The notes below the pieces were generated by a model that saw only the letters and a list, made by a program, of their open reading frames with translations, had not been told where the DNA came from and made no database searches. A stretch of 64,000 bases of DNA from a virus: positions 1-64,000 of IMG/VR virus record IMGVR_UViG_3300045257_000193. The stretch is one strand, 5' to 3'. The position numbers and the translations under genes are program-made. Shown here piece after piece: positions 19,701 to 63,958 of the stretch (its first letter is position 1; each line of letters begins with the position of its first letter).

Positions 19701-21756
19701 GCCTTTTGAAAATGGTACATCAGTTGTTATTCAGGATATAGAGATATTCTTGCCACCCTTCCCTTTTGTGCCAAATTACTACGATGGGAGTGGTGATTTA
19801 ATTGTTTCCGATGTTTTATTTTCAGATCAAGAAAAGGAAGGTCAATATTGGAGACGAGTTTTTGATCAAGTCTCTTATAATGAAAGGCGCAAGGAAGAAA
19901 AGCGACTTCAAAAACAGAACCCAGAATATATTGACGAAGACTTAGAGGAAATTAGAATCCTTGAGTGGAAACGCCGTATGAACGGTGTTTGGATGATGAA
20001 TAATGGCGATCCGGTCTATATGCCCGGCTTATATTATTTCTACCTAGCTCATTGGGTAATGGACACCGGATACGCAAAATTCAGGATACCAGACTTAGAA
20101 GATTTTTTATTTTGGCAGTATTGCTGTGAGGATCCATTATGCTTAGGTATGTTAAAGGTCACGGTTAGGCGTAACGGAAAGACGTACCAGGCAACAGTTA
20201 AGACTGCAGAGTATGTAATTAGACAAAGATTTAAGCACGGAGGAATACAGTCAAAAGCAGATGCCGATGCAAAAAAAGTTTATACTAAACACTTAATACA
20301 GCCATTAAAATATGTTGTTGACTTTTTCAAGCCAACGATGGACGAACAAAAAGGCGCAGCTCCTAAAAAGGAACTTTCATTATCTAAAACAATAACAAAA
20401 GACACTGATCAGCACGAAGCGTTTGAAACTGAACTTGGGTCTCTTATCGATTATAAGCCATCAGACATTATGGGTTATGACGGGGATAAATTACACAGAT
20501 TCACGCACGACGAAGTTGGAAAGACCACATTAATAGACGTTTACGAAAGACACAGAGTTGTCCGTAAATGTTGTACGGATACCGAGACGGGCCATTATAT
20601 CGGCAAAATGATAGCTACAACAACTGTTGAAGATATTGAAAAAGGCGGCAAGGAGTTTAAAGAATATTGGGACGGATCTAATCAAAAAAAGAAACATCCA
20701 CAAACCGGACAAACAGAATCAGGATTGTACAGATTCTTTGTTCCGGCTTTTAGAACAAAGCATTTTGATAAATATGGTTATCCGGACGAAGATCGCGCTA
20801 AGAAGGAAATATTGGCAATGCTTGAAAGCTATTCCAATAATCCCAAAATGCAGACTGCTGAGAGAAGGATGAATCCAATGACAGAAGCAGATCTTTTCGC
20901 ATCTGATGCCGAACATTGCCCTTTTAACGTAGCCGTAATCGATAGCACGTTGCAATATATATCAATGCTTCCGGATAATGATAGGGAGCGTTGTAGAAGA
21001 TTTGATTTGGTATGGGAAATTCCTGATGTAAAAGTAAAAGCAATCCCCAATTCAACAAATGGTCGGTGGTCTATATCCTGGTTGCCGCCAGAATCTGATC
21101 AAAATCAAGTGCATGATAGCGGAGGTTCAGAACATAGATTTAAACCACTGAATGATCATAAGTTTGCAATGGGGTGTGATCCGGTATCTATGGGTATAGA
21201 AGCTGTACACGGAAGTTCTTGTGCAGCCATAGCTGTCTATAGAAAGGCGGACGTTCATCATGAGGCTGAATTGTTTTCCGAAAACTTTATAGCTGATTAT
21301 GTGCATGACCCAGATAATCCAGAAGAGTTTTATGAAGACCAAATAATTGCTTGTTTCTTTTTTGGATGCGAAGTTCTTATAGAAAAAAACAAGTTCGATA
21401 TTTACAATTACATGAAAAGGCGTGGGTATTTATCCTTTGTGATGTCTCAGCCTGAGAACACCGTATCTATCACCCACAAGGGAGAAATGAAAGAGGGGAT
21501 ATCTGCTGGTACATATACTATTGATTTATATGTAACAAGGTTAAAGTCTTGGTGGTCTCTACATGGTCACAGATGTAGGCAAGAAAGGGTTTTAGAGGAC
21601 GCCAGAAGCTTTACCGTTAAAACTCGCGGCGAACACGATTTAACCGTTGCTTGCGGCTGGGCCAGACTTGCCGCGGAGAAACCATACAAACCGAAGACGG
21701 TTAATATACCGATCGGCTCACTATTTTCATTTAGGGAGCAACAAAGTAGACATTAG
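19693..21756 (+). CDS. terL: Terminase large subunit
   Basis: A 687-residue packaging motor of crAss-like type. The N-terminal part has [19 protein letters not shown] (residues 103-121). The ATPase has a Walker A variant RRNGKT (Lys163), Walker B with THDE (Asp273, Glu274) and a coupling TTTVE motif (309-313). The nuclease domain starts at [10 protein letters not shown] (Asp496). It translocates DNA into the prohead and cuts it. It starts with GTG behind an unusually good Shine-Dalgarno site. It ends in TAG, which overlaps the end of a reverse-strand homing endonuclease. Confidence 0.9.
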
Positions 21757-22298
21757 TCTAATCGCCTCCAAAGGAACCCGCCAGCGATTTTGCCAGGAGT
21801 TTTAGATGCTATGACTATAGAGTTCATTCCTATTTTGTTATCATTATAGGCTTGTTTTATTGATTCATATACTTTAACTGGGATACTATCAATAGTAAGT
21901 TTTTCAATCCTTATACCAGCAATTCTATCCTTTCCGAACCTAGTTCGAACAGACCCTACTTTGCCAAGGGTATCATGAGAATGGTATTCATTTTCTTGAT
22001 ACGTACACCATTCTAAATTTTCAACTCTGTTATCGGTCTTTATACCGTTAATATGATTAACGCATGGCTTATTATCCGGGTTTGGAATAAAGTGCAACGC
22101 AACCAGCCGATGCACTGTAAAAAACTTTCTTTTTGCATTATTACTTAATCCAATCCTAGGATACCCATATCTATTATTTGGAGTAGCTCTTTTCTTTTTC
22201 TGCTTAGTTGTCCAATAGTCTAATGAAAATACTTCTCCATTAGTATTTATAGTGTATAGGTTTTCGTAATTAATAATTGGCACTTCTAAAATTTCCAT
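21753..22298 (-). CDS. Homing endonuclease NUMOD4-HNH, reverse strand
   Basis: A 181-residue protein from the ATG at 22298 ([20 protein letters not shown]); an upstream in-frame start at 22358 adds a non-family 20-residue leader. It has NUMOD4 (residues 1-35), the HNH core with [19 protein letters not shown], and a C-terminal DNA-binding segment ending GGFLWRR. It is inserted between terminase and portal on the opposite strand. Its HNH core is encoded by an 85-bp stretch identical to one in the gene at 48862-49446. Confidence 0.9.
22008..22092. repeat. 85-bp perfect direct repeat, copy A (HNH core)
   Basis: Identical over 85 bp to 49147-49231. It encodes the [19 protein letters not shown] to NLEW part of two homing endonucleases. 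The sequences on either side differ, which points to gene conversion or recent shared ancestry of that segment. Confidence 0.9.
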
Positions 22299-22398
22299 AT
22301 AACAAAATTGACCTTTACATACTAGGAATGTCTCACGATTCTGTTCTATAAAGGCCAATGATAAAGATTTTTTGCCCTATTGTGAGACAAGCGATAAA

Positions 22399-29238: not shown

Positions 29239-29264
29239 AAAAGTAATTTGACACTCTTAAATTA

Positions 29265-29298
29265 AGACTATTCACCTTCATTGGTGAATAGTCTTTTT
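29265..29298 (+). terminator. Intrinsic terminator before appendage gene
   Basis: AGACTATTCACC (29265-29276) pairs perfectly with GGTGAATAGTCT (29283-29294), a 12-bp stem with a TTCATT loop and a T5 tract. It is only 12 bp before the next ATG, so it may also act as a leader hairpin. Confidence 0.85.
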
Positions 29299-33157: not shown

Positions 33158-33725
33158 GTTAGCAGAACAGGTAATGCGCCTCCTGAATGGGGGAGATTAC
33201 TCACCATCTGATTCTAAATGGGATATCAGGGAGATTGCTATTGCCGTTGAACAGGCTTCAGCTAAATTAATACGACTAAGAACATTTGAAGAGTATAGAT
33301 CTGGTGAACCAAATTCACCAGGTCAATATTTGGCAACATTTACAGGAATACCCATACAACGCGATACAACTAGAAATTTATCGTATATTGATATTCCGGC
33401 TAAGTATATTTCCCTTCCAAAAGGGCGCGGAGTACATTCGATAGGTCCGGAAGGGAATGAATTTGTAAAATACATTCCGCTTGATGCGGGGGCTTTAAAC
33501 TTCACAAACATCAGACAGGCACCATTCCTTCAAGGAAATTCAGGTTACTGGCTAGAAGGAAGTAATGCTTACTTCAGCAATGAGTTAAAGGGAAATGTAG
33601 TTATTAAATTAATTACCGGATCAGATCTAGTTGCCGATATGGAATCAGATATTGTAACACAGGTTTATTCTATTTACAGAACAGAAAAACTAGAAGATAA
33701 AGTTATTAACGCTCAGGAGGAATAA
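33138..33725 (+). CDS. Head-tail connector / ring protein candidate 2
   Basis: A 195-residue protein overlapping the previous gene by 20 bp and the next by one. It begins with two helices (LAEQVMRLLN, IREIAIAVEQASAKLIRL) followed by a beta-rich part. This repeats the general build of its neighbours and fits a stacked ring of the crAss-like neck. Confidence 0.6.
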   Translation: MTDQVTKLAEQVMRLLNGGDYSPSDSKWDIREIAIAVEQASAKLIRLRTFEEYRSGEPNSPGQYLATFTGIPIQRDTTRNLSYIDIPAKYISLPKGRGVHSIGPEGNEFVKYIPLDAGALNFTNIRQAPFLQGNSGYWLEGSNAYFSNELKGNVVIKLITGSDLVADMESDIVTQVYSIYRTEKLEDKVINAQEE

Positions 33726-34492
33726 TGGATCAGGGATACACCACATTAGATCAAATAGTTCGCGAGGCTTGCATAGAATCCGATGATGCTGGACTACACA
33801 ACTACAACAAATTTATGTTGTGGGCCATGGAAGGTCTGCAGGAAATGCGTATCGATGATTTCCAGGAAATTAAATCCATCCTTGTAACTACTTCTACAAT
33901 TGCTACGGTACCATTCCCAGTTGATATGGTTAAATGGACAAAGATCGGTGAAGTATCCGGTGATCGAGTAAAAGTTTTTACGATCAATAACTCTTTAATG
34001 CTTAATCATAAAACTGATTGCGGCATTGAACAGAATAATCCCAAGTATCAGGCTAAATCATACTACAACATTGCTAAAAATGATGTAGAGACATTGGATG
34101 GTTATTTCTTTTATGGATACGGTAGTTCAGGCGCTATTTACGGATACGGTAATGGTGTACAGGGTGATGGGCAATTCAGAGAAGATAAATCACGCAGAGA
34201 GTTCCAGTTCAGCTCACAGTATGCCTCAAAAGATATTGTACTGGAATACGTTTCAACCGGTTTAAACCCTTCCGGACAGTCTTATATCGAAGAATCAATA
34301 AGAAAAGCAGTTAAAGAGTACATTTTCTGGTGGAAGACGGAACGCGATCGGACAGCGAGTGGCGGAGAGAAGGATCGGGCCAAATATCTGTACGATCAGG
34401 CAGCAAGAACAGCGCAGCGAAGAAACATGATTGACTTAGATACAATACAAGCTATAGTACGTAAGTCTTATTCACAGACTCCAAGAGGTTAA
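33725..34492 (+). CDS. Head-tail connector / tail tubular protein candidate
   Basis: A 255-residue protein with the order I know from crAss-like neck proteins: an N-terminal helical part (IVREACIESDDAGLHNYNKF), a beta core (TIATVPFPVDMVKWTKIGEV), a Gly/Tyr loop, FSSQYASKDIVLEYVSTGLNPSG, then a helical arm (IRKAVKEYIFWWKTERDR). It likely forms a ring under the portal. It is the last gene before the terminator at 34545. Confidence 0.65.
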   Translation: MDQGYTTLDQIVREACIESDDAGLHNYNKFMLWAMEGLQEMRIDDFQEIKSILVTTSTIATVPFPVDMVKWTKIGEVSGDRVKVFTINNSLMLNHKTDCGIEQNNPKYQAKSYYNIAKNDVETLDGYFFYGYGSSGAIYGYGNGVQGDGQFREDKSRREFQFSSQYASKDIVLEYVSTGLNPSGQSYIEESIRKAVKEYIFWWKTERDRTASGGEKDRAKYLYDQAARTAQRRNMIDLDTIQAIVRKSYSQTPRG

Positions 34493-34544
34493 AATAAACA
34501 GTAGTCAATACGATAATTGATCGTACCAGATTGACTCATTTGCG

Positions 34545-34574
34545 AACACCTTCATTAATTTGGAGGTGTTTTTA
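34545..34574 (+). terminator. Terminator ending the structural forward operon
   Basis: AACACCT (34545-34551) pairs with AGGTGTT (34564-34570), followed by a T tract to 34573. It lies 53 bp after the connector stop. Confidence 0.7.
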
Positions 34575-34745
34575 TTTTATATGAAAAGCAATATATACAG
34601 CACAAAATAATGAGGCCATTAATGATAAATGTGCAAATAATAAATCATGAGTATAATCATGTTTAATAAATCTTTTATTAAACCATATAAAAGACATGCA
34701 TGAAAAACTCATTATTAACGAAAGCAATAGTGTATTTGTATTCAT
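34572..34745 (-). CDS. 57-residue putative two-span membrane protein
   Basis: A reverse-strand frame, beginning MNTNTLLLSLIMSFSCMSFI, with two hydrophobic stretches (about residues 5-21 and 35-54) split by a basic loop (NKRFIKHDYTHD). It fills the gap after the connector operon and could be reached by the promoter at 35159-35189. Very AT-rich and short, so it may be chance; membrane character argues for it. Confidence 0.4.
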   Translation of the reverse strand: MNTNTLLLSLIMSFSCMSFIWFNKRFIKHDYTHDLLFAHLSLMASLFCAVYIAFHIK

Positions 34746-35016
34746 AATCTTAAATTTTAACTCGATTACCTTTAAACATGATTTAGATTCTTTGAGAGAA
34801 GTGATTGTTAAGGTTAAGCTAGTCTAAAACCCCTCCTATAAAAGACTAGCCTAACAATACCATGATTTGAGTTCAATCGTTCGTTTCATGTGCATCAGAA
34901 AAAGCTATCCAATCTTAATGCGGTTTTAAATTTAACCTATTGTACAATAAAACAATGGCCTGATCCAACGCACTATAAGAACGAAGTTTGAGGCAAACAA
35001 AACGACCAACAATTTA
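34746..35016. other. Gene-free stretch with a strong bipartite hairpin
   Basis: No reading frame over 40 codons on either strand. GCTAGTCT/AGACTAGC (34818-34825/34843-34850) is stacked, across a small asymmetric loop, on ATTGTTA/TAACAAT (34804-34810/34852-34858). The perfect 12-bp palindrome TATTGTACAATA is at 34938-34949. It continues into the pseudoknot region to the right. Confidence 0.6.
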
Positions 35017-35154
35017 ATTAATAGCACCTCTATTAATGTAGGGCACAAAATTAAAGCCCTAATGATCTCGTACATCAATTAGGGCTTTGTTGATTATGCT
35101 CTACTAAAGCATAGATTGGAAAGACTTTCATAGGTGTACGAGACCCGATTTATA
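35017..35154 (-). ncRNA. Candidate pseudoknotted RNA
   Basis: Four perfect helices lie in 127 bp. ATTAATAG/CTATTAAT is at 35017-35024/35030-35037. AAAGCCCTAAT/ATTAGGGCTTT (11 bp) is at 35053-35063/35078-35088. TATGCT/AGCATA is at 35095-35100/35108-35113. TCTCGTACA in the loop of the 11-bp hairpin (35066-35074) pairs with TGTACGAGA at 35135-35143, forming a 9-bp pseudoknot. A reverse-strand promoter lies just beyond (35159-35189), so I assign the minus strand, though the pairs work in either strand. Confidence 0.55.
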
Positions 35155-35158
35155 TATT

Positions 35159-35189
35159 CAAAATTAATACTATTTTTCAATAGTACAAT
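35159..35189 (-). promoter_or_regulatory. Reverse promoter ATTG-N19-TAATTTTG
   Basis: TAATTTTG (35159-35166) is a perfect -7 box on the reverse strand, with ATTG 19 bp upstream (35186-35189). It lies just after the stop of the tail stabilisation gene and points into the pseudoknot region, giving it a dedicated transcript. Confidence 0.55.
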
Positions 35190-35199
35190 AGATAATTTA

Positions 35200-38100
35200 T
35201 TATTTATTTGTCCTTTGATTAATTTGAGAATACAAGTTCAGATACCTAAGACGGAATAAGCTATCCCCATCGTAACGGAAAGTAACATTGAACAAGTGAG
35301 AACTAATAAGGTTGCCTTCCCACTTGCTCAATCCGGATGAAGTATCTCCCGGAACATCACATTGCCAATCTTTATTTATACGTTCAAAGGCACCATTCTC
35401 AATTGTTGTAATCTGGCCATCTTGGTTAGTGATTGACTCACACCAAAGAGGCGTGTCGCTTTCCTGAGATATAAAGTTGGCTATCTTCTGCATATTTGGT
35501 TCTGCATTAAATATAACCTCAATACGGCTAGGATATTTTACACCATAGAAAGTATTAACCGGACCTGCTTCATGTTTATACATCTTACCATCCTTAAAAG
35601 TGTAAAGCTGCAGCTGAATATAAGCGAACTGCTCAGGAAGGAAACTAAAGAAAGATGACCATGTATTTGGGTAATCCTGACTTGCCGGATCAATGAATCC
35701 TATATTTTCATCATCAAATCTAAAGTATTGAGTTCTAAACTTTGGGTCAAACCCGGTAAAGCATCTATCCGAAACTTTGTTATAGAAATATGATCGCGCT
35801 TTGTAGTTACCGGATATATCGAATATGCTGTTGAATGTGTTATATCTTAAAGCGCACCCTTTTAGCTTGCTCCAGAAATAAATATAGTCATCATATTTGT
35901 TCACTGATTCGGGGTTAACGCAGCCATATCCACCAGGCAGCTTTCTTGCTGAGTTCAATAGGTGATCTGATATGATAAGGTTATCGCTTCCATCCGCATT
36001 CGCAAGCATGGCTTTATTAACATATACAAGCGCTGCTTCCTGCTCACAATTTATAAGAAGTATTTGTTCTTGGGAAGTCATCTTTCTGATAGCACCCCAT
36101 GTATAATCTAATTGATATGAGTTAAAGGAATAGAATGTACTTGTTCCATTAATACTTGCCCCATCAATATATCTGTCTGAATATCGAATGGTGTCCCTTC
36201 TTCTTGTTTGTCTTTCACCGTCAAGTAAAACAACGTTTGGCCTACCATTAGCCTTCTCCCATATTCCAGCTCTATTTAAGTTATCCGGACTCATAGAGAA
36301 GAAAGGATATTGAGAATAGCCTCTGCCTAAACTAAAGTCAATTACGCCTCTTTTTCTATAATTTATTCTAATGTCCTTAGCGTACATTGGAGCATACATC
36401 ATATAATGCGTGTCCCCTTCAAATATACTGAACGAGGTTTTAGAATATTGTCTCAGATCGGTTTTAGAATTATTTATAGGATAACAATCGCCATATTCAT
36501 AAAAGAATATATCATCTGATCCAGTATGAGGTGTATATATTTCAATAAATGCACCTGACCCTAAAATATTATCTTCCAGCAATCTTTGGTCGAATTTAAC
36601 TTTAAGGTATCTACCCTCAACAAAATCCTTTATTTCAAGATCAAGAATACCTGAATATGTTCCAGTGCTAGAATAGTAAATATTTAATCTATCTCCTGAT
36701 TGAAAAACGTATGGAGTTTCACAAGAGGGGTTGTATACTTGTCTTGCAACGGTATTCGTACTATTAAATTGGTTTTCTTCAAAGTTGGTTGTATTGTTCC
36801 AGTTATAAATATCTATTAGAATATCAACAGCTGAATCAAGCCCTGCTTTAGAGAATTCATTTATTTTCTCCCCTCTACGGTTAACTCCGCCTACATATAT
36901 TGCGGTCCCGTCAGGGGAGTATCCAATTATATAATCATTTTCATCACTATTAAATGGAACACTATCTGGCGTTCCTGGCCAAGTATAGTGTTGTACTGGC
37001 TTATATCTAGCTTGAGTAAATATTAAACCAGCTTGGTTATAGTTTCCTCCGGCACTTTTTGCCCAATATGTTACCTCTTTGTATATTGGCTTATCAGTAT
37101 CGCTAAGGCCATATTCATATACTGGAAGTGGGCTACTCCAATCATTCCCATCAGCAATCATGTTGTTTACCCGTCTTTCTCCTGGAGTTGCGCCAAGCGG
37201 AGGTAAATAAAGAGTTACATTTTCTTTTGTTTGTGCAGCGGCAGTTCCAATTACTTTTCTTATGAAAGATGGATTACCATTAGAGTCATAGCCAGATACA
37301 TATAGGATATCATTCGTAATACCCTGTACAAATCTTGTAACTTTATTATTGTTTGTTCTAACAATTTGATAATGTGTTGCCCATTCTGGCGGAGATCCAG
37401 CGATATCAAAGTCAAAACACCAAACTTTCTCCTTGTCACCAGCCCTATAATCCGGAGGTGTTAAAACTTTTAATCGTTGGTCTGTGTAAACGCCCGACTT
37501 TTGTCCAAACTCATTATAAAAAACAAGGCCTATTTCATATTTAGAATTATTCTTCCATACCATGAAATTCCCAACTAATTCTGCTTGGCTAGGTCCTGTA
37601 ATTGTATCGGTAAAATAATCTACACTTTTTCTTCCCTGACTAACATTTCCAATAACCAAATTAAATTCAGCAAACCCTTCAAGCGTGTTTCCTATAAGAT
37701 TTCTATTATCTACTGTTTCAATAGTTTCACACGGCCAAATATCATCATATGGCCGCTCAGTATCAGTTGGTGCTATTACGCTAAAAGATAAATCATTTCT
37801 AAATTGTACAGATAAATCTTCATTACTGCCATATACGGACAAATCAGTATCGGATAATATTAATTGATCCCATTCAGTCTGATTGATAACTTCATCTACT
37901 TTAGTTCTTTTAAATAATTTAAAAGGCCCTAAATATGTATTTGCGTATGCAAAATCTATATATTTAATCTTTGTATTATAGTAAAGTCCGTCAATACCTC
38001 CAGCTCTAAAGACCCTAAACTCATTGATTTTAAATTGAGAATAAATGGCATCATCTAAAACTAGCGTAGTATATTTACTGCTAACTAGTTTAGAATAAGG

Positions 38101-38697
38101 TGACCAAGAGCTTTGTTGCCCATTGTCATATACAAATCGATATATGAAATAGTAGTTTTCTTTCCGGTAAAAATTAGTATTAACAACTCCAGTTTGCTGC
38201 AATTGTATTTGCAAAGGAAACGTGGGTGGAGTTTTTATTAAAGACATATCAAACTCAATTGGATCAAATAAAAATTCCAATACGTTTATTTGTCTTGGGT
38301 ATTTAGATCCACCTTCAGTCCATGTAAGTAAGTTGTTTATAAGCGTTACGGAATGAATGATCAAGTCTGATTCCCACCCCAAATTGCCAATAACTAATTG
38401 AGTAAAATTAGTGCCATCAAAAACACTTATCGAGTCGTTATTATTTGAATTCCAAGTAAAAACGTATATTTTATTTTTTGATGTATCAGAATACTTACCT
38501 ATTGTTTTATTATCCCCAGGCGCAAGTGCATTTGGAATCTCGACATTACCCAATACCGGTTCGATAATACCATCTTTACTATTGTTTACAATATTTACCC
38601 TACAGTTTTCAACTCTTCTAGAAAATGTTTTGTCTACACCTTCATCAGCAGTATCAAAATCCATTCCGATTACAACTCTTTTATCCTGTAGATTCAT
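35200..38697 (-). CDS. Tail stabilisation protein (crAss-like Tstab type)
   Basis: A 1165-residue, beta-rich protein of the size and sequence type of the large crAss-like tail stabilisation protein. The N-terminus has a conserved opening (RVVIGMDFDTADEGVDKTFS, then ENCRVNIVN) and WTEGGSKYPRQINV. Later parts contain many Tyr/Asn/Gly beta segments (DGQTPI-type loops are absent). It is thought to plug or stabilise the portal and tail after packaging. It is the last gene of a short reverse operon behind a lipoprotein gene and is isolated on the reverse strand inside the structural region. Confidence 0.75.
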   Translation of the reverse strand: MNLQDKRVVIGMDFDTADEGVDKTFSRRVENCRVNIVNNSKDGIIEPVLGNVEIPNALAPGDNKTIGKYSDTSKNKIYVFTWNSNNNDSISVFDGTNFTQLVIGNLGWESDLIIHSVTLINNLLTWTEGGSKYPRQINVLEFLFDPIEFDMSLIKTPPTFPLQIQLQQTGVVNTNFYRKENYYFIYRFVYDNGQQSSWSPYSKLVSSKYTTLVLDDAIYSQFKINEFRVFRAGGIDGLYYNTKIKYIDFAYANTYLGPFKLFKRTKVDEVINQTEWDQLILSDTDLSVYGSNEDLSVQFRNDLSFSVIAPTDTERPYDDIWPCETIETVDNRNLIGNTLEGFAEFNLVIGNVSQGRKSVDYFTDTITGPSQAELVGNFMVWKNNSKYEIGLVFYNEFGQKSGVYTDQRLKVLTPPDYRAGDKEKVWCFDFDIAGSPPEWATHYQIVRTNNNKVTRFVQGITNDILYVSGYDSNGNPSFIRKVIGTAAAQTKENVTLYLPPLGATPGERRVNNMIADGNDWSSPLPVYEYGLSDTDKPIYKEVTYWAKSAGGNYNQAGLIFTQARYKPVQHYTWPGTPDSVPFNSDENDYIIGYSPDGTAIYVGGVNRRGEKINEFSKAGLDSAVDILIDIYNWNNTTNFEENQFNSTNTVARQVYNPSCETPYVFQSGDRLNIYYSSTGTYSGILDLEIKDFVEGRYLKVKFDQRLLEDNILGSGAFIEIYTPHTGSDDIFFYEYGDCYPINNSKTDLRQYSKTSFSIFEGDTHYMMYAPMYAKDIRINYRKRGVIDFSLGRGYSQYPFFSMSPDNLNRAGIWEKANGRPNVVLLDGERQTRRRDTIRYSDRYIDGASINGTSTFYSFNSYQLDYTWGAIRKMTSQEQILLINCEQEAALVYVNKAMLANADGSDNLIISDHLLNSARKLPGGYGCVNPESVNKYDDYIYFWSKLKGCALRYNTFNSIFDISGNYKARSYFYNKVSDRCFTGFDPKFRTQYFRFDDENIGFIDPASQDYPNTWSSFFSFLPEQFAYIQLQLYTFKDGKMYKHEAGPVNTFYGVKYPSRIEVIFNAEPNMQKIANFISQESDTPLWCESITNQDGQITTIENGAFERINKDWQCDVPGDTSSGLSKWEGNLISSHLFNVTFRYDGDSLFRLRYLNLYSQINQRTNK

Positions 38698-38706
38698 ATT
38701 GGTTAA

Positions 38707-39066
38707 TTATTCTGGTAAAGAACTTAAATCTAAAGTCCCTGAAGTAGTATTTAAAATTTCAATGTAGATATGGCCAGACTGGTAATTATTTAAATCTCTA
38801 GCTCTAACTCTTATGTTTATAGGGTTGTCACAGCTATATTTGATAGTTCTATTTTTATCTATTGTAGTAAAAGAAAAAGCTGGCCCACTTTGAGGCGCAT
38901 CTACCACCGTATCATTATCTAGGTAAGAAGTCACAGTAGTATTTTCAGGAACTTCGTATTCCAGGAAATATAAAGTTGATGGCTTTGTTGGCATAGGGTC
39001 GTTATTTTTTTTATTGCAAGAACAAATAATCAAACATGCAAATAAGGTAAATATTAAGTTTTTCAT
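38707..39066 (-). CDS. Phage-encoded lipoprotein
   Basis: A 119-residue protein with a lipoprotein signal: MKNLIFTLFACLIICSC, with the lipobox cysteine at residue 17 (IICSC), then a hydrophilic linker and a beta-rich domain. It would be lipidated and placed in the outer or inner membrane. It lies 9 bp upstream of the tail stabilisation gene. Phage lipoproteins often block receptors or superinfection; an outer-membrane spanin role is less likely because it is far from the lysis genes. Confidence 0.7.
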   Translation of the reverse strand: MKNLIFTLFACLIICSCNKKNNDPMPTKPSTLYFLEYEVPENTTVTSYLDNDTVVDAPQSGPAFSFTTIDKNRTIKYSCDNPINIRVRARDLNNYQSGHIYIEILNTTSGTLDLSSLPE

Positions 39067-39088: not shown

Positions 39089-39123
39089 CAAATATATTCA
39101 AAATTATATGTAATAATAGCAAA
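39089..39123 (-). promoter_or_regulatory. Promoter for lipoprotein-Tstab operon
   Basis: TATATTTG on the reverse strand (39089-39096), the same -7 box as groES, lies 23 bp before the ATG at 39066. TTTG is found 23 bp upstream (39120-39123), at the long end of the spacing range. Between box and ATG is the AACCTAAACC-TTACTACT leader. Confidence 0.5.
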
Positions 39124-48861: not shown

Positions 48862-49446
48862 TCACTTTTTGTTAGTATTAATATCAATAATTTTATATTT
48901 CCAGATAAATAATCTACTTAAAGGACCTCTCCCGTTAATGGCGCGTATTATTTGAATACCTTTAATGTTATTTTCTCTTGCAGCGCTTGTTATGCTTCTA
49001 TATTCACAAATTAAATTACCATCTAAACTTAATTTTAATATTGGCTTTCTTGAGTAAAATCCTTTTTGCCTATTTAATGGATTTTGTTGTTTTCTTTTTA
49101 TGCCTAATACATCTCTTGCGTGAATTGCATTTTCTTTTACATTAACCCATTCTAAATTTTCAACTCTGTTATCGGTCTTTATACCGTTAATATGATTAAC
49201 GCATGGCTTATTATCCGGGTTTGGAATAAAGGTCTCTGCAACTATTCTGTGGATCCTGACAGTTTTTGATGTGCCATTTAATGAAAGGGAAATATTGCAA
49301 TATTGAGCCCTTGATAAATCCTTACCGATGCCAGGTGTGATCTTTTTTATCTTGCCGAACTTATATGTGTAAACATCTCCATCTGGCGTTATGGAGTAAT
49401 GGTTTTCATACCCTTTTATCCAAGTTGGTATTGGTTTACTTTCCAT
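48862..49446 (-). CDS. Homing endonuclease NUMOD4-HNH
   Basis: A 194-residue protein: NUMOD4 at residues 5-45 (PTWIKGYENHYSITPDGDVY), HNH core with [19 protein letters not shown], and a C-terminal LDGNLICEYRSITSAARE module. It shares an 85-bp identical DNA segment with the gene at 21753-22298. It is inserted between a secreted protein and a hypothetical gene, overlapping the latter by 11 bp. Confidence 0.9.
   Translation of the reverse strand: MESKPIPTWIKGYENHYSITPDGDVYTYKFGKIKKITPGIGKDLSRAQYCNISLSLNGTSKTVRIHRIVAETFIPNPDNKPCVNHINGIKTDNRVENLEWVNVKENAIHARDVLGIKRKQQNPLNRQKGFYSRKPILKLSLDGNLICEYRSITSAARENNIKGIQIIRAINGRGPLSRLFIWKYKIIDINTNKK
49147..49231. repeat. 85-bp perfect direct repeat, copy B (HNH core)
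   Basis: Identical to 22008-22092, same orientation, 27.1 kb away. Flanking homology falls off abruptly at both ends. Confidence 0.9.
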
Positions 49447-56086: not shown

Positions 56087-56894
56087 AATAAGGGATAAGT
56101 AATTTAATCGTTTCTCCACCGTATGAATTCTGAGTTTTTTCAATGAATTCTTGTGGTGTATACTTTTTGCTTTCAATTCCTTTAATGAAGGAATCTCTAC
56201 CCATTTGACAAGATCCAGTTAACTTATTGTGAGCTTTTGAAAATTCTTCAATCGAATACAATTCATCTTTTTTAAATTGATCGACGAACATTTTAATTCG
56301 GTCTTCAATTGGTAGATTATCCTCAAACTTTTCATTAGCTTCCTTGAAAGCTTCTTCTACAGTATCGGCATGAGCAAAGTAATTGCCAACTTTTGCAACA
56401 AAACATGGTGTTGTAGTTAAATCAGAATTAAGTATCCGACCTTTAACTAAGTTATTTCTGATTAACTTATCAATTATTGTGTTTACGCCATCAATTTTAT
56501 ATACCTTGCCTTCATTAATAGTTAATATGCCACTGCCACTGCCACTGCCATTGCCATCGCCATCGCCATTGCCATCGCCATTGCCATAGCCATCGCCATA
56601 GCCATTGCCATCGCCACTGCCATAGCCATAGCCATTGCCATAGCCACTGCCCTTGCCACTGCCATAGCCATCGCCATAGCCATCGCCATAGCCATTGCCA
56701 TCGCCACTGCCATAGCCATAGCCATCGCCATCGCCATAGCCATAGCCATAGCCACTGCCCTTGCCACTGCCATAGCCACTGCCGTCGCCACTGCCATAGC
56801 CATCGCCATAGCCCTTGCCATAGCCATCGCCATAGCCATTGCCGCCGCCGTCGCCGTTGTTATTTATGGATAGGAATATTTCTAAGCCTTCCAT
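56052..56894 (-). CDS. Every-second-glycine repeat protein with C-terminal phage domain
   Basis: A 280-residue protein from the ATG at 56894 (MEGLEIFLSI). Residues 14-122 are a strict Gly-X array, X being Tyr, Asp, Asn, Ser or Lys (GYGDGYGSGDGSGYG style). Residues about 125-280 are a separate domain with CFVAKVGNYFAHADTVEEAF, HNKLTGSCQMGRDSF, TPQEFIEKT and YGGETIKLL. I recognise that domain from Bacteroidota phage proteins (DUF7666-like), usually without a long Gly-X array. The repeat could be phase-variable or phase-separating; unknown. Confidence 0.65.
   Translation of the reverse strand: MEGLEIFLSINNNGDGGGNGYGDGYGKGYGDGYGSGDGSGYGSGKGSGYGYGYGDGDGYGYGSGDGNGYGDGYGDGYGSGKGSGYGNGYGYGSGDGNGYGDGYGNGDGNGDGDGNGSGSGSGILTINEGKVYKIDGVNTIIDKLIRNNLVKGRILNSDLTTTPCFVAKVGNYFAHADTVEEAFKEANEKFEDNLPIEDRIKMFVDQFKKDELYSIEEFSKAHNKLTGSCQMGRDSFIKGIESKKYTPQEFIEKTQNSYGGETIKLLIPYYEPPRTQPHMV
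56529..56855. repeat. Low-complexity 6-bp-based tandem array
   Basis: About 327 bp of gccatc/gccata/gccact-type hexamers encoding the Gly-X array on the reverse strand. Imperfect repeats of longer blocks (for example GSGDGNGYGDGYG twice) suggest repeated slippage or unequal exchange. Confidence 0.9.
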
Positions 56895-62384: not shown

Positions 62385-62475
62385 CACGGAGTGCGTTAAG
62401 GATAGTAGCGGAACTCCTTTTTGCCTTCGAACAAAAAGAGTGGGAGCGGATAGCCTGACCTGCAAGGGAACGCCC
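62385..62475 (-). repeat. GC-richer Bacteroidota-type intergenic repeat element
   Basis: On the reverse strand this reads GGGCGTTCCCTTGCAGGTC, GGCTATCCGCTCCCACT, CTTTTTG-loop-CAAAAAG (62417-62438), GTTCCGCTACTATCC and TTAACGC. I recall near-identical strings repeated between genes in many Bacteroidota chromosomes. It begins at the stop codon of the gene at 62475, as such elements often do. Family recollection is unverified. Confidence 0.5.
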
Positions 62476-63359: not shown

Positions 63360-63947
63360 TTAGTCCAAAAGTTTATTTTTCAGTGGCTTTATACCATCAT
63401 AAATACCTATGCCTGCATATTCCCACCTGTAGCCACCTGCTGTTTTATATCTTCCTGACAATGCACCACTAATTGATATGTTGGTTAATTTATATACGCT
63501 TTTAACGGAGGGATATATACATTCCATCCCGTTCGGGTGTATCTGCCTTACAAATTTAGGGTGCTGTTTGCCTCCGTACTTGTGGCCGTATGCCCTTTCT
63601 TTATCTTCATCCTGCTTTACATTGCGCCTAAAGTGCAGCATATTCTCGCTGTTCGTGCACCATTCCAAGTTTGTGTAGTGATTGTTGTTTTTATTGCTGT
63701 CTTTATGATTGACAAATTGCTTATTTTCTGGATTTGGAATGAATGCTTGGGCAACGAGTTTATGTACGTATATATCCTTATTGTTTATAGACGCCCTATA
63801 ATATCCGCTTTCTGTCTTCTCTTTTTTGTGTTGCCTGAACGCCCTGTATTTGTAATGCCTACTAAATACGTTACCCATGTGATCTACGAAATACTCATAC
63901 ATCTTTGTTTCTATTGGCAATCTTCTTAACGCTTCTTTATATTCCAT
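63360..63947 (-). CDS. Homing endonuclease NUMOD4-HNH
   Basis: A 195-residue protein from ATG 63947 (MEYKEALRRLPIETKMYEYF). NUMOD4-like start (residues 15-45), HNH core with VHKLVAQAF, VNHKDSNKNNNHYTNLEWC, and C-terminal GGKQHPKFVRQIHPNGMECI with a NUMOD1-like helix and GGYRWEY. More diverged from the other HNH genes than they are from each other. Confidence 0.85.
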   Translation of the reverse strand: MEYKEALRRLPIETKMYEYFVDHMGNVFSRHYKYRAFRQHKKEKTESGYYRASINNKDIYVHKLVAQAFIPNPENKQFVNHKDSNKNNNHYTNLEWCTNSENMLHFRRNVKQDEDKERAYGHKYGGKQHPKFVRQIHPNGMECIYPSVKSVYKLTNISISGALSGRYKTAGGYRWEYAGIGIYDGIKPLKNKLLD

Positions 63948-63950
63948 GCA

Positions 63951-63958
63951 CAAATATA
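63951..63958 (-). promoter_or_regulatory. TATATTTG box right at the HNH start
   Basis: A perfect -7 box only 3 bp before the ATG at 63947, with no good -33 element. If used, the mRNA would be leaderless. Confidence 0.3.

Follow-up and report, generated by a model that had tools for sequence, protein, structure and literature searches.

Where two operons of a crAss-like phage genome converge, a perfect 11-bp hairpin and a 9-bp match between its loop and a distant strand interlock in a pairing too exact for easy chance, which may mark a small RNA with a terminator hairpin. Our leading explanation, held tentatively, is a short minus-strand RNA of ~110 nt that would have its own promoter and would stop at the muzzle operon's terminator; a bare junction with terminators is nearly as likely. 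That an RNA is made from the stretch is plausible. The hairpin and its loop match (35066-35074 with 35135-35143) had been described in a sequence-only reading of this DNA, and both coordinates and pairing are exact; the further hairpins listed there, of 8 bp each (35017-35037 and 35167-35186) or in two parts (34806-34862), are also present (Table 1).

The window, i.e. the whole stretch of 64,000 nucleotides that was analysed, covers almost the full length of a virus record of 64,356 bases. Matches to PHROGs families were obtained for its terminase, its portal and its virion proteins, and a crAss muzzle C-terminal domain is present in the protein of 1165 aa encoded at 35200-38697 on the minus strand. 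Among isolated phages, those nearest to it have Flavobacterium, Cellulophaga, Maribacter and Tenacibaculum as hosts, and therefore the window is a crAss-like phage whose host is probably a flavobacterium. Several other features of the window were recorded. The virion-gene region encodes a 1062-aa protein with ice-binding-like beta-roll repeats (PF21300; 29310-32498, plus), which is common to L002, L102 and L103 and was not found in the stretches of phi38:1 and elemoF that were searched. Two HNH_3 endonuclease genes lie on the minus strand (21753-22358 and 63360-63953), the former between terminase and portal and opposite to the gene direction, and an identical segment, at least 35 bases long, occurs at position 22008, within that gene, and at 49147. 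The phage-borne Flavo-1 RNA (RF01705) was detected at 62391-62464 on the plus strand, scoring 48.4 bits where the gathering threshold is 42.

Table 1. Features of the convergent junction and its flanks, in window positions.
Feature	Position	Strand	Remark
Intrinsic terminator, plus virion operon	34544-34571	+	11 pairs, loop 6, tail TTATTTTATA
57-aa ORF	34572-34745	-	Two hydrophobic stretches; possible member of minus-strand transcript
Two-part hairpin	34806-34862		17-nt loop; U-tract on neither side
297-nt domain closed by interrupted long stem	34866-35162	+	z -6.4 plus, -3.7 minus
8-bp hairpin	35017-35024/35030-35037
Candidate pseudoknotted small RNA	35046-35154	-	Putative; predicted start 35154, predicted end in U-tract
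UUUAAUUUUG tract after hairpin GGGC	35046-35055	-	First three U overlap outermost stem pairs
Perfect 11-bp hairpin	35053-35063/35078-35088 (35053-35088)	-	Loop 14 nt
Loop half of 9-bp pseudoknot helix	35066-35074		Exact pairing with 35135-35143
8-bp hairpin within candidate RNA	35095-35113	-
Partner strand of 9-bp helix	35135-35143		~11 nt from predicted minus start
15-mer TAATTTTGAATATAT, copy 1 (candidate RNA)	35152-35166	-
Bacteroidetes-type promoter ATTG-N19-TAATTTTG	35159-35189	-	Sequence motif
8-bp hairpin	35167-35174/35179-35186
Muzzle protein gene	35200-38697	-	Inverted relative to all relatives examined
119-aa ORF, first gene of minus operon	38707-39066	-	Lipoprotein-signal-like start (LIICSC)
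15-mer TAATTTTGAATATAT, copy 2	39092-39106	-	Ends 25 nt before start codon of lipoprotein-muzzle operon

The plus-strand virion operon ends with a gp96-like gene (33725-34492), its terminator comes next, and the gap between the gp96-like gene and the muzzle gene measures 707 bp. The stretch had been placed between structural operons, and it is indeed flanked by two, but since the plus operon ends at 34492 and the minus-strand muzzle gene stops at 35200, these operons are convergent. On its left, the non-coding stretch adjoins the 57-aa membrane-like ORF, for which relatives were sought and none found. In phi38:1 and elemoF, gp96 is followed by the muzzle gene on the same strand, and the two genes are co-oriented in all 38 loci, the nearest included and some of them near-duplicates, in which a muzzle search detected both. 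In the two nearest relatives, L102 and L103 (gp96 48% identical, muzzle 33%), the muzzle gene starts one base past the gp96 stop and the junction slot does not exist. Relatives were sought by MCP, TerL, gp96 and muzzle; the single closer one, a 16.5-kb contig (IMGVR_UViG_3300030410_000003; MCP 91%, TerL 70%), ends two genes before the junction. Therefore, as far as these data reach, the inverted muzzle gene, which is a tail gene, the 119-aa lipoprotein-like gene that precedes it and the 707-bp gap are peculiar to this lineage, and gene order is otherwise kept outside 35200-39066 (minus), which holds the two genes. Repeats for DNA inversion around the muzzle gene were searched for and rejected, the inverted repeats found being weak ones only.

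The earlier judgement that the interlocked complements are unlikely by chance is borne out by counts. In shuffles that kept local dinucleotides (870 in total, with the loop partner required within 150 nt of a perfect hairpin), a perfect pairing of at least 11 plus at least 9 bp arose 0.0057 times per 64-kb window, and in 181 related phage loci (2.02 Mb) it occurred 0 times, with only one case of 10 plus 8. Scored by stacking energies, the pseudoknot of this region ranked first in the window at -38.4, ahead of -32.4 for the next place (mean -24.0, sd 3.3), and it exceeded 300 of 300 shuffles of the region. Once G-U pairs and longer spans were allowed, four equally strong pseudoknots appeared in ~190 kb of related DNA, and thus it is the perfection and compactness of the pairing that are rare. 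Of all perfect hairpins in the window, the longest is a different one (29264-29295); it has 13 bp and a T-rich tail, lies between two virion genes and is probably a terminator.

The closest competitor to a small RNA is an ordinary convergent junction, in which the hairpins would be operon terminators only and the loop match a coincidence; this is possible, and it falls just behind our own reading. It draws on the convergent arrangement with its clear plus-strand terminator, and on the frequency of perfect hairpins of at least 11 bp, ~1 per 120 kb in the 2.02 Mb of relatives. Given such a hairpin, moreover, a 9-nt loop partner has a chance of ~1% (0.0057/0.53), which is not prohibitive in a scan of a whole window for oddities. 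The junction by itself, however, leaves unexplained both the promoter with its exact TAATTTTGAATATAT copy and a long-range fold that survives masking of the hairpin.

On the minus strand, a span of 144 nt holds, in this order, the promoter, the 5' pairing segment, the hairpin and the U-tract. The proposed reverse promoter was located at 35189-35159, as the sole exact ATTG-N19-TAATTTTG and a member of the class [AT]TTG-N18-20-TAnnTTTG, which is threefold enriched (10 found, 3.45 expected), with many members in intergenic gaps; TAnnTTTG alone is not enriched in the genome (86 found, 88 expected). Its position and orientation suit a predicted promoter of the candidate RNA. A transcription start map of Flavobacterium psychrophilum places TAnnTTTG at -12 to -5, as the -7 box (PMC9723704), which puts the predicted minus start near 35154. 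The promoter core, the 15-mer TAATTTTGAATATAT, is repeated exactly before the muzzle operon, and for it no third site was found in the genome even when two mismatches were allowed; a shared word of at least 15 between the two gaps arose in 10 of 2000 shuffles. The second copy presumably belongs to the promoter of the muzzle operon, and at the usual distance from it there is no good -33 box. At the other end, the hairpin runs from 35088 to 35053 into UUUAAUUUUG, combining a stable stem with a directly adjoining U-rich tract, the pattern of an intrinsic terminator; by this pattern it is probably the terminator of both the minus operon and the candidate RNA, the first of these being its simpler first role. 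Because the terminator scan took loops of 3-8 only, this hairpin with its 14-nt loop was not listed by it. The small hairpin whose U-rich tail is overlapped by the -7 box of the promoter could itself be a muzzle terminator.

The favored minus-strand RNA would have arisen as follows. Inversion of the muzzle gene would have created a convergent junction in need of new transcription signals, where the 11-bp hairpin followed by UUUAAUUUUG would serve the minus operon (the lipoprotein-like gene and the muzzle gene) as its intrinsic terminator, and a host-sigma-type promoter just past the muzzle stop would start a second minus transcript, of ~110 nt, that uses the same terminator. From its start at ~35154, such a transcript would pass through the 9-nt partner ~11 nt on, the 8-bp hairpin and the 11-bp hairpin into UUUAAUUUUG, to end at ~35046. 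The 9-nt segment near its 5' end, matching the terminator loop, could form a pseudoknot or a loop-strand contact, which would leave the RNA compact and end-protected. Its likely work would be that of a 3'-end-located phage sRNA, by base pairing via the open stretch CCUAUGAAAGUCUUUCCAAUC or by protein binding. Antisense targeting of start codons was rejected, since no target among the phage's own start regions scored better than shuffled sequences. It is a long shot that the loop of the terminator hairpin is plugged by the sRNA's own 5' end, a contact acquired at the muzzle inversion on which termination or stability of both the sRNA and the overlapping muzzle mRNA would depend.

Both helices are exact, and an H-type pseudoknot built from them has connectors of 2, 3 and 46 nt. 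By the usual rules for such folds, a 2-nt connector suffices for crossing the deep groove but scarcely for the shallow one when the helix has 9 bp, and this geometry suggests a better fit to the plus than to the minus strand. On the minus strand, 2 nt across the shallow groove are too short, so the contact would be partial. Pseudoknot-type scoring and folding of both strands had been proposed together with a minus-strand transcript; the pseudoknot came out as the window's best candidate, and the strand is contested, folding significance and H-type geometry favoring plus, promoter and U-tract favoring minus.

A structured plus-strand RNA of ~297 nt (34866-35162), in which the interrupted stem would close a five-hairpin junction and the pseudoknot would compete with it as a switch, is accordingly a rival, albeit an unlikely one. 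On plus, 35133-35144 would be needed by both the pseudoknot and the closing stem, which can therefore be alternatives only. The domain folds more significantly on plus than on minus (z -6.4 versus -3.7), also with 35038-35104 masked (-5.1 versus -1.4), modeled pair probabilities are mostly 0.8-0.99, and the 2-nt loop, a short one, would span the deep groove, the arrangement of canonical H-type pseudoknots. The value of -6.4 is partly inflated, however, because the segment ends were chosen: a fixed 300-nt window in this region gave z -4.5, and in a background of 300-nt windows (a random 387 of 850; mean -0.43, sd 1.42) one other place reached -5.6. Furthermore, no plus promoter of the class [AT]TTG-N18-20-TAnnTTTG was found in the gap, the terminator at 34544-34571 separates the domain from the plus operon, and Rfam gave no match. 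The most extreme folding score in the window (z -13) belongs to a long GCC-ATA/ATC/ACT/ATT run at 56530-56860, of which the minus-strand reading is a Gly-X repeat. Quite improbable is a minus-strand leader of the 57-aa membrane-like ORF, in which the hairpin would be an attenuator whose read-through changes when the 5' segment pairs with its loop, for although promoter, hairpin and ORF point in one direction and the ORF has two hydrophobic stretches, this ORF without a relative found may be chance, the leader would span ~400 nt, and loop pairing alone leaves the terminator stem undisrupted.

Searches for homologues of the stretch found none, whether by DNA similarity (phages, plasmids, IMG/VR), by exact pattern or with both flanking proteins in IMG/VR; the slot is absent from the nearest larger neighbors. 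Those exact-pattern matches that were read are different sequences without the hairpin and were rejected, and 12 related records contain matches of 14-20 bases only and no copy of the stretch. In Rfam, no family reached its gathering score, the best being a chance snoRNA match (28.8 bits versus 56), on which ground a known family was rejected, as was a group I or other catalogued intron, for want of an Rfam match. A tRNA or tmRNA was rejected, none being detected. A mobile element at the imperfect inverted repeat 34866-34921/35109-35162 was rejected as well, there being no second genome copy and, by eye, no clear target duplication.

Bacterial sRNAs of the DapZ type are transcribed from promoters of their own at the 3' ends of mRNAs and share the terminator of the mRNA, and the candidate would be like them in its predicted promoter at the end of an mRNA and in sharing a terminator with that mRNA; it differs in having no known chaperone or target, in sitting at a phage gene, in a pseudoknot that may link its 5' end to the terminator loop, and in being known from sequence alone. 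As in intrinsic (Rho-independent) terminators, a GC-containing hairpin is followed by UUUAAUUUUG, but the loop here has 14 nt, nine bases of which exactly match a distant strand. GOLLD and ROOL are large ornate RNAs found in phages (PMC12286853), and although the candidate, too, is a structured non-coding RNA candidate within a phage genome, it is far smaller, has no Rfam match and showed no conservation. In Flavobacterium psychrophilum, which uses TAnnTTTG promoters, sRNAs such as Rfp18 are mapped independent transcription units (PMC9723704); the candidate would likewise be an independent unit with a flavobacterial TAnnTTTG promoter, but it belongs to a phage and is known only from its letters. 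Narrow searches of the open-access literature found no report of such non-coding RNAs in crAss-like phages. If real, the candidate RNA would bring along both a promoter and a terminator, and its ends are simple to predict. The inverted muzzle gene also indicates that the order of virion genes, usually fixed in the crAss-like group, can be disrupted, the breakpoint carrying new transcription signals.
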